Source of the DNA: Methylothermaceae bacterium | Lineage (GTDB): Bacteria > Pseudomonadota > Gammaproteobacteria > Methylococcales > Methylothermaceae | Assembly (NCBI GenBank): GCA_026981855.1 | Contig: JALSIB010000037.1 | Location: 62,001 to 126,000 of the forward strand | Length of the DNA: 64,000 nt | Reading direction: 5' to 3' | Shown: in pieces, positions 13,430 through 41,441 of the stretch | How the letters are laid out: each line of letters opens with the position of its first letter | Position numbering within the stretch: the first letter of the stretch is position 1 | Made by a program: the position numbers and the translations under genes | Notes under the pieces: generated by a model | The model's database searches: none | What the model was told of the DNA's origin: nothing | The model's input: only the letters and a program-made list of their open reading frames with translations

Positions 13430-13458
13430 TTGGAACTTGAGCAACGAGGTTGTATGCT
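13430..13458 (+). promoter_or_regulatory. Possible sigma-70 promoter giving a leaderless mRNA
   Basis: TTGGAA and TATGCT are separated by 17 bases. Transcription would start about 7 bases further, at or within a base or two of the ATG at 13465. No Shine-Dalgarno lies at a usable distance before that ATG, so a leaderless message is plausible. Confidence 0.4.
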
Positions 13459-13464
13459 AAACCC

Positions 13465-14319
13465 ATGATGAATGACCGTTTACCCCGCGCCCCCAGGGTT
13501 CTGGTGGTAGAGGATGATGAAATCTCCAGGATCTGTCTCGTTGCCTTGTTGACCCGGATGGGATACGAAGTGGAAGAGGCCATCACCGGTGGACAAGCGG
13601 TGGAATTCATGCGCCGGCATTGCTTCGACCTGGTGGTGATGGACCTCCATCTCCCCGACGGCCCGGCGGAAGACAGGCTGGCCGAACTCCAACCCCTGGA
13701 TACCTCGCCACCGATATTTGCGGTCACCACCCGGGTCACGATCGAAAGGACCGGCGAACTGTTTCGGGCAGGTTTCAGCGATTATTTGCTCAAACCTGTT
13801 TCCGCCGAAACATTGACGGCAAAGATGGCGGCCCATTCGGGAAACCCGGGCCGGTACCTGCGGCAACTTTCACACCAGATCACCAGCCATCTCGAGCATC
13901 ACCTCCCCGCAGGCATCCGGCTGATCAAAAAATTTTTGGCGGAATTGCCGGGACAATTGAAAGCGGTGCAATCGGCCCTGAACCAGAACCGCCGGGAAGA
14001 GGCTGTGGAAATCGTGCACAAACTCCATGGCGCGGCGGGCTTTATCGGTTTTTCGGAATTGGAGCGAGTGGCCGACAGGCTGGAGGAAACGCTGCAGGAA
14101 GCGGAAACATCCTTGCAGAAAGCAGCGTGGGAAGAAGTTGAAAAAGAAGCCCAACGCCTGCTGGCGTCGGGCGATGATTTATTGGAAATTCTGAATCAGG
14201 AAGCTTACCACCTGTCACTTCTGTCGGAGGGGTCCGGGAAGTGTTCGCCGGACCGAAATTCGTCCGTAGATTCAGGCTCGGCGCGGCCCTTCCCGGACCC
14301 CGAAAAAGCAAACCGATAA
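13465..14319 (+). CDS. Two-domain response regulator: receiver plus Hpt
   Basis: A 284-residue phosphorelay protein without kinase or output domain. The receiver (about 10-120) has Asp17-Asp18, phospho-acceptor Asp60 (VVMDLHLPDG) and Lys110. The Hpt domain (about 140-235) has its phosphorylatable His at 185 in VHKLHGAAGFIG, with His where the common motif HxLKG has Lys. The last 38 or so residues (SEGSGKCSPDRNSS onward) are encoded by a repeat element shared with 41268-41398, so the native C-terminus was probably different. It lies between fliL and fimV; partners are unknown. Confidence 0.85.
   Translation: MMNDRLPRAPRVLVVEDDEISRICLVALLTRMGYEVEEAITGGQAVEFMRRHCFDLVVMDLHLPDGPAEDRLAELQPLDTSPPIFAVTTRVTIERTGELFRAGFSDYLLKPVSAETLTAKMAAHSGNPGRYLRQLSHQITSHLEHHLPAGIRLIKKFLAELPGQLKAVQSALNQNRREEAVEIVHKLHGAAGFIGFSELERVADRLEETLQEAETSLQKAAWEEVEKEAQRLLASGDDLLEILNQEAYHLSLLSEGSGKCSPDRNSSVDSGSARPFPDPEKANR
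14204..14316 (+). repeat. Palindromic repeat element, copy A
   Basis: Perfect 13-base inverted arms, GGGGTCCGGGAAG at 14229-14241 and its complement at 14289-14301, enclose a 47-base core. The outer flanks CTTACCACC..TCACTTCTG..CGGAG (14204-14228) and GAAAAAGCAAACCGA (14302-14316) recur in the same orientation in copy B (41268-41398), but the core is inverted there. The element runs through the end of the receiver-Hpt gene and stops just before the convergent fimV stop. Confidence 0.85.
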
Positions 14320-14330
14320 GTGTGTCGAGA

Positions 14331-16805
14331 TCAGGAAGTCAGGCGCAGCTTGTCAAGCAGATCCTGAGCCTCCCGTTTTTGCTGCCCGCTCCCCCGCTCC
14401 AGGATTTCATCCAGAATCTCCCGGGCGGCATCGACATCTTCCATGTCCACATAGGCACGGGCCAGATCGAGCTTGGTGTCGATTTCATCCATGTCGGTCA
14501 AATCGAACGCTTCACCCGACGCGTCCTCCTGTTCTGCAGCATCCTCCACCGCTTCCCCGGAAAGCGAGGTGAATTCCAGAGTCTCATCCTCCCTGGTTTG
14601 CGATGCTTGTGGCTGGTCATCGGTCTTGCCGACTTCAAGATCGAAACCACTCAGATCGAAATCGAGGGAATGATCATCGGCATCGGATCGCTCGTCCGCC
14701 CCCTCTTCGGTGGACTTTTCCTGGGTTGCGGCAACATCCGAGGCGCCTTGCTCATTCGTGGCCGAAAATTCAAACTGATCGAAATCCAGATCGGCAAGCC
14801 CGTCATCTTTTGCACTGGATGCTTCCGGCGGCGAGGAATCGCCACCTGCAGGCAAATCCATGTCGACATCCTCAAGCGGGGCGGAGGTCGCCAAATCCAT
14901 ATTTTGTTCAGGTGATGCCGCACCGAACAATGAGGAATCAGGGCAGATCTCACGCCCCATTTCAACGACCTTGTGCCAGAATTCTTCATCTTGTTGGGCA
15001 CCTGCCTCCCGCAGATCCCGGGCATAAGCCTCGAATTGAGCGCCGTCTTCATTGGCATAGTAGATTTCCAGCAGTTTCAGCCGCAGCTCCGGCTTCTCGG
15101 GCTCATCCGCCAATGCCTGCTTGATGAGCTCCTCGGCCTGCTGATAACGGCCATAGGCCAGATAGACGTCCGCTTCGGCAATGGGATCGACCGCATCGTT
15201 TTCGGTCTCGAGGATATCGAAATCGCTGGGGGTGAACTCACTAAGGAAAGAGCTTTCCGCCACTTCCATCCCGGCAGTGGAAGTGACGGCTGTCGCCATG
15301 GGTGTGGTCGCGGCAGCCTGAATGGAGGCGTCCTGATCCGCCCCGTCCATTTCCGCCAGCAGGGTATCGGCCTGCACCTCGGCCTCCTGCCGCCTGCGCC
15401 ATATCATCCATCCGGCGATTCCCAGCAGCAGCAAACTGCCCCCTCCCATGCCGAGAAACATCGGCTCATCCAGCAGGGCCGTCAGGAAGGAAGGCTCCGT
15501 TTCTTTTTCCGCAACCGCCGGGGGTCGTTGCTGCACCGGTTTTGCTTTCTGGCTGGATTTGGATTCCGGTTTCCCGCTTTGTTCGGGCTGCGGGCGCGTC
15601 CCGGCCTGTTCCTGCACCGCCACTTTGGCCGTGGTTTCCCTTTCTGTCATCACCGGGGCGAGATCATCGCCAGCCGTCACGGCCGCTTCGGTGACGGAAT
15701 GGGTGGATGGGCGTCCCCCAGCCACCGTAGCGGAATCATCGCCAGCGGTCTCGACAGCCTCTGGCTGTTGTCTGGCTTGAAGCGCCGCCAGTTGCGCATT
15801 CTGCATTTGCAGCAGCGCCGACATTTTCTGCTCCAGGGCTTCGAGACGGGCCTTGAGCGCTTCGTTCTCGGCCCTCAGGCTGTCGATCTTCTCCCGGGTC
15901 TGCGCGCTCACCTCGTCCGGCCCCTCGATGATCGGCATCCCGACCTGCCCCGAATCAACCTCATTCTCTTCGGGGGCTTCCAGCTTCAATTTGGGCTCGT
16001 CCGCTTCGGCCAGCGCTTCATCCCGCTGCGTTTTCGGGGTGGATTCTTCCCTGGTTGCCAGCCAGGAACGGTACTGCTCTCTCAATTCGCGCCGCGCCTG
16101 GGAGCTGGACAATCGGGAAACCGCCTGCGGGGATGGAATCTTCAGCGTCACCCCTTGCTTGAGATTATTGACATTGCCATCGAGGAAGGCTTCCGGGTTT
16201 TCCCGATACAGCGCCATCACCATCTGCTCGGTGGTGACAGAAGCATCCCGTTTCAGCCTTTCGGCGATTTTCCAGAGGGATTCGTTGCGTTTCACCGGCC
16301 CATAGGCGACACCCGGGCTGGCTGTTTCCACCGTGGCGACAGAGCGGCTGTGTTGGAGAGGGCCCGGCGTGACAGCCGGAACGCTGTGGACAACGGCGAC
16401 TTCATCGGCAAAAGAAACCGGGGGATCCAGAAGCACCGTGAATTCCCTCAGCATCCGCCCCTGGGGCCAGTTGACCTCGAGCAGAAAATCCAGGAACGGC
16501 TCGCGAATGACGTTGGGAGACGTCACCTGGATCACGACGGAACCATCGGCCTTGCGGACAGGCTTGAAACGCAAATTCGCCAGATAGTAAGGCCGTTCCA
16601 ACCCCGCTTTGGAGAAGGCCGCGGGAGACGCCAGACGGACTTTGATCTGAGAAACGTCCTCGCCTGAAGATACCAGGAGCGGAATTTCCGCCAGGAATTT
16701 CTGGTTGAGCGCTGAGTGTAGTTTGATCTCCCCCACACCCAGAGCGTTCACGCCCGCCGGCGTGAGAACGCTCACCACAGCCAGGGTCTTAGCGAATTTG
16801 CGCAC
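14331..16805 (-). CDS. fimV: FimV/TspA family peptidoglycan-binding membrane protein
   Basis: An approximately 824-residue polar hub protein. A signal peptide is followed by the family's N-terminal motif (LGVGEIKLHSALNQKFLAEI). A LysM domain lies near 170-230 (VKRNESLWKIAERLKRDA), a coiled coil near 305-345, a Pro/Ala/Gln-rich stretch before the membrane helix (about 450-475, LLLLGIAGWMIWRRR), a long acidic cytoplasmic part, and a C-terminal FimV helical domain (DTKLDLARAYVDMEDVDAAR). The GTG at 16805 follows AGGTGA; a GTG at 16814 without a ribosome site is the alternative. Position after asd matches pseudomonads. Confidence 0.92.
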   Translation of the reverse strand: MRKFAKTLAVVSVLTPAGVNALGVGEIKLHSALNQKFLAEIPLLVSSGEDVSQIKVRLASPAAFSKAGLERPYYLANLRFKPVRKADGSVVIQVTSPNVIREPFLDFLLEVNWPQGRMLREFTVLLDPPVSFADEVAVVHSVPAVTPGPLQHSRSVATVETASPGVAYGPVKRNESLWKIAERLKRDASVTTEQMVMALYRENPEAFLDGNVNNLKQGVTLKIPSPQAVSRLSSSQARRELREQYRSWLATREESTPKTQRDEALAEADEPKLKLEAPEENEVDSGQVGMPIIEGPDEVSAQTREKIDSLRAENEALKARLEALEQKMSALLQMQNAQLAALQARQQPEAVETAGDDSATVAGGRPSTHSVTEAAVTAGDDLAPVMTERETTAKVAVQEQAGTRPQPEQSGKPESKSSQKAKPVQQRPPAVAEKETEPSFLTALLDEPMFLGMGGGSLLLLGIAGWMIWRRRQEAEVQADTLLAEMDGADQDASIQAAATTPMATAVTSTAGMEVAESSFLSEFTPSDFDILETENDAVDPIAEADVYLAYGRYQQAEELIKQALADEPEKPELRLKLLEIYYANEDGAQFEAYARDLREAGAQQDEEFWHKVVEMGREICPDSSLFGAASPEQNMDLATSAPLEDVDMDLPAGGDSSPPEASSAKDDGLADLDFDQFEFSATNEQGASDVAATQEKSTEEGADERSDADDHSLDFDLSGFDLEVGKTDDQPQASQTREDETLEFTSLSGEAVEDAAEQEDASGEAFDLTDMDEIDTKLDLARAYVDMEDVDAAREILDEILERGSGQQKREAQDLLDKLRLTS

Positions 16806-41178: not shown

Positions 41179-41267
41179 ATAGATCAACCAACCGATGGCG
41201 AAAAACCATCGAATAGCCACTCATTATGGCCATGTCGAAGAAAGAAAGCAAATCCGGCTTCGGCGGC

Positions 41268-41398
41268 CTTACCACCGATCACTGCTGCCGGAGGGGTCCG
41301 GGAAGGGTCTGTCAGCGGCCGGGGAGGGGTGCGCCGGGCCTGAATTTACGGACGTTCGGTACGGCGGACCCTTCCCGGACCCCGAAAAAGCAAACCGA
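41268..41398 (+). repeat. Palindromic repeat element, copy B
   Basis: Perfect 17-base inverted arms (41293-41309 and 41367-41383) enclose a 57-base core. The left flank CTTACCACC..TCACTGCTG..CGGAG and the right flank GAAAAAGCAAACCGA match copy A (14204-14316) in the same orientation. The core aligns to copy A only as its reverse complement (CGTCCGTAAATTCAGGCCCGG against CGTCCGTAGATTCAGGCTCGG). It lies between the SRP RNA gene and a diguanylate cyclase gene; the remaining 41179-41267 holds no recognisable gene. Confidence 0.85.
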
Positions 41399-41441
41399 CA
41401 GGCGTTGAGTTCGGCGGTTCCATTATCCCCAGCCGGCCGCC

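Follow-up and report, generated by a model that had tools for sequence, protein, structure and literature searches.

Sporadic core inversions in a MITE-like repeat family of a Methylothermaceae bacterium and its relatives

Two copies of a short repeat, A and B, occur in the window (the whole stretch of 64,000 nucleotides analysed, located on contig C37 of the assembly): their outer parts have the same orientation, and the core enclosed by their inverted arms runs in opposite directions. The question raised by this locus is whether such an arrangement reflects a small invertible cassette, possibly an active one, as proposed in a sequence-only reading, or an event of another kind.

Anatomy of the two copies and of their family

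Regarding the extent of the repeats, the pair itself proved real, and the limits first assigned to it (14204-14316 and 41268-41398) were too short: on the forward strand, copy A spans 14204-14329 and copy B 41268-41409. In A, the left 9-bp target duplication, ATCAGGAAG (14195-14203), is followed by the left terminal inverted repeat CTTACCACCTGTC (14204-14216, forward strand), the left inner arm GGGGTCCGGGAAG (14229-14241, forward), the core (14242-14288, reverse strand), the right inner arm CTTCCCGGACCCC (14289-14301, forward), and the right flank with the right terminal repeat GAAAAAGCAAACCGATAAGTGTGTCGAG, which has a 2-bp insertion (14302-14329, forward); the right target duplication (14330-14338) is identical to the left one. 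B has the standard core orientation and is flanked by the small SRP RNA/dnaX on one side and by a diguanylate cyclase gene on the other, with TTCGGCGGC on its left (41259-41267) and TTCGGCGGT on its right (41410-41418), two target duplications matching at 8 of 9 positions.

The outer parts and the inverted arms of A and B agree in the same orientation, with 88% identity over the 41 nt of left flank and arm and 92% over the 37 nt of right arm and flank; the similarity reaches beyond the arms up to the terminal repeat, which reads GTGTGTCGAG in A and GGCGTTGAG in B and is followed by the 9-bp direct repeats. As for the core of A, it aligns only when reverse-complemented: against the consensus core of the family it gave a value of 38 in that direction versus 10 in the same orientation, and the best of 2,000 shuffles reached 14. 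In addition, the core of A is shorter, lacking about 17-20 bases that the consensus, B and most copies have. Both copies fold as single strands into long hairpins (z of -2.5 for A and -3.7 for B), and an Rfam search over the window returned only the SRP RNA and tRNAs, with no match at either repeat.

The response-regulator/Hpt gene upstream of A (13450-14319) enters the MITE with its 3' end and has its stop codon inside it, at 14317-14319; the last 37-38 residues of the protein are thus encoded by copy A, and the stop, computed in frame, is the same with either orientation of the core.

When the whole genome (2.75 Mb in 60 contigs) was searched, roughly 35-40 whole or partial copies were found, remnants included. 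A complete copy measures about 145 bp (range about 125-145): CTTACCACCTATCACTTCTGTCGGAG is followed by the first arm (about 19 bp), the core, the complementary arm and GAAAAAGCAAACCGATAGGTGTTGAG; the terminal inverted repeats are CTTACCACCTATC/CTCAACACCTATC, and the inner body folds into a long hairpin, whose arms (again about 19 bp in the consensus) surround an asymmetric core. Perfect 9-bp direct repeats flank 23 of the 49 listed end-pairs, versus 0.5 in shuffles, and perfect duplications of 4-8 bp are absent from the same 49; these end-pairs count some loci in both directions, and the distinct loci with a perfect 9-bp repeat are about 17 of 38. The family is short, multi-copy and devoid of its own transposase, as expected of a MITE, and from their sequences A and B are members of such a MITE-like, non-autonomous family, shared by this bacterium and its relatives: it is present in 7 of the 10 genomes of the genus examined, and the same threshold gave no match in 31 other genomes of the order. 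The family appears to be an undescribed one, belonging to Methylothermaceae-type methanotrophs.

The elements would presumably be mobilised in trans by a transposase encoded elsewhere. Neither the examined DDE_Tnp_1 loci of the genus nor the surroundings of other end copies yielded an autonomous insertion sequence with both ends, and since no transposase carrying the family ends was found, the status of MITE rests on the termini, the target duplications and the copy number. A single candidate for a parent insertion sequence, at G004:C186, was discarded because an apparent Fur-type gene separates the transposase from the family end. The single-contig genome G003 has about 49 DDE_Tnp_1 matches, far above most of the genus.

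Core orientation across copies

With the outer flanks as the reference, the orientation of the core was assessed in 69 copies, 12 of which had no usable flanks and could not be scored. Among the 57 remaining copies, 55 have the standard orientation and two are flipped, namely A and L187 (G002:C14:21866-22010); in this genome, one orientation occurs in 20 of the 21 scoreable copies, A being the sole exception, a pattern that the sequence-only reading had itself named as counting against its proposal. The same two copies emerged when the genus was queried with the flipped consensus, as they alone align with it through both outer parts, at 80-81%. Five other apparent flips (L100, L118, L131, L134 and L170) were weak-ended copies that had been mis-oriented, and turned out to be standard or unscorable once the outer parts were used for scoring.

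The second case belongs to another species, and can be read against a close, unflipped relative in the same genome, L142 (G002:C32:209923-210054): the two copies share 95% identity on the left and 85% on the right, and their cores are 95.5% identical when one is reversed versus 54% in the direct comparison. They also have in common an unusual pairing of tips with inner flanks. Together, A and this independent pair support the proposed inversion across the arms, and the comparison of the copies indicates that the core has been inverted between its arms at least twice, independently. A search of the relatives for an unflipped orthologue at the position of A gave no occupied site, as the gene there is only about 35% identical and too diverged, so the flip at this site is not caught before and after.

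These counts bear directly on the idea of a programmed, phase-variable cassette, in which a site-specific recombinase would act at the arms and flip the core in living cells. The arms are inverted and of suitable length, two independent flips exist, and the genome has a resolvase and five integrase-type genes; against this, only one of 21 scoreable copies is flipped here and two of 57 overall, and the orthologous copies (G003/G009, G004/G008, and G008 with G009/G003) are collinear, mostly through the element and its core, with none flipped. Moreover, the sequence of the arms varies between copies and yet stays paired, unlike a fixed recombinase site. As for the enzyme, the six resolvase/integrase matches of the genome are on contigs C4, C14, C44, C54 and C56; the window's own contig, C37, has none, in agreement with the reported absence of a recombinase gene from the window, and none adjoins the copies of the window, so that a site-specific recombinase is not implicated as the cause of the inversion. 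On account of the orientation counts and the orthologue comparison, a programmed switch is very unlikely, and the suggestion of a possibly active invertible cassette was not borne out: the inversions are sporadic, most probably a rare mutational accident and not a working genetic switch.

In the subfamily of L187 and L142, the terminal tips are exchanged relative to the inner flanks, which suggests that the terminal repeats, too, underwent an inversion at an earlier time; the diagnostic bases that differ are only a few.

Arms and mechanism of the flip

The inner arms covary between copies: 93.4% of the cells are paired versus 86.3% after shuffling, and double changes occur in 12 of the 19 arm pairs versus 6.3 in the shuffled sets, none of 300 shuffles being as high. 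This covariation implies that the arms either exchange sequence or are selected for pairing.

The core would be inverted if the polymerase switched template between the arms of the hairpin, or if these arms recombined as short inverted repeats, and the sequence alone fits both. For A, one event with two switches, the first in the left arm and the return at CCCTCCCC/CCCTTCCC, could produce the flip and the missing segment together; this model is identical to A at 116 of 127 positions versus 105 of 150 for the unflipped consensus. The alternative order, in which a copy that had first been shortened, as L003 is, was then flipped, would fit as well.

A different route to the same product is exchange with a MITE copy in the opposite orientation: the arms would serve for gene conversion or homologous recombination, and the outer parts would be left untouched. 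Each genome has many near-identical arms, and the outcome would be identical to that of an inversion; nonetheless, no donor copy was identified and the arms, at only 13-19 bp, are short for RecA recombination, which makes this route improbable. Least probable of all is that arm, core and arm form a separate mobile element, inserted in either orientation into the outer repeat: a few copies, e.g., L188 and L170, do keep arm, core and arm without recognisable outer ends, but there is no precise empty outer repeat, the copies with a short middle (L034, L053, L054 and L028) differ in their internal junctions, and the 9-bp duplications are at the outer ends and not at the arms.

The reading we favour is that of a MITE family in two copies of which the core was flipped between the arms, in all likelihood by a rare, unprogrammed event and most likely through template switching, or through an exchange equivalent to it and independent of RecA. 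Template switching at short inverted repeats homogenises the arms and inverts the spacers, an inversion documented in yeast at arms longer than 9 bp (PMC8604942). A bolder extension of the same reading, namely that the inner arms recurrently swap sequence and flip their contents, the covariation and the flips being a genus-wide record of template switching, possibly ongoing at low frequency, is put forward tentatively and seems rather unlikely.

Comparison with known systems and related elements

The inversion in yeast (PMC8604942) resembles the present case in that short inverted repeats are kept as arms and the spacer they enclose is inverted; there, it involves a few bases within genes, whereas here it involves about 47-66 bp within bacterial mobile elements, one of them with a deletion. 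Among bacterial MITEs, inversion is reported for the Correia elements of Neisseria, according to the review PMC10969869, which cites Elbeyioglu et al. 2017. Like the present family, Correia repeat enclosed elements (CREE) are small, multi-copy MITEs in which terminal inverted repeats surround a conserved core, a likeness of behaviour only, judged by description; in contrast, the present family is in a different host group, duplicates 9 bp of its target and has an additional pair of arms further in, between which the core alone is flipped. It joins the general kind of Correia-like bacterial MITEs, with a sequence and inner arms of its own. Invertible promoters and phase-variable switches resemble it in that inverted arms enclose a segment whose orientation differs from copy to copy; unlike them, this family shows no sign of reversibility and no linked recombinase, and nearly all its copies have one orientation.

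The flipped core is a record of inversion at short hairpins, and reveals no new switch. The same hairpin recurs many times in parallel in this family, which, with two copies whose core inversions are independent and clearly readable, can be used to estimate how frequently inversion and arm homogenisation occur at short inverted repeats in bacteria.

Regarding elements with similar termini, an exact scan of the genome contig collection with the right end gave no match; a degenerate scan with this end matched two Segatella records and two MAGs, one of Methylothermaceae and the other of Methylococcaceae, the latter with a different element of related ends. Further short elements whose ends are related to those of the family exist elsewhere in the order: in four of them (L273, L274, L282 and L287), the left end reads CTTACCACCTATCACTTTGC and the body, which is a different one, contains CGTCATACCGGCATGG or a similar sequence. 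The related-ended element L281 (G082:C405) adjoins a tyrosine recombinase gene resembling, by eye, an integron integrase.
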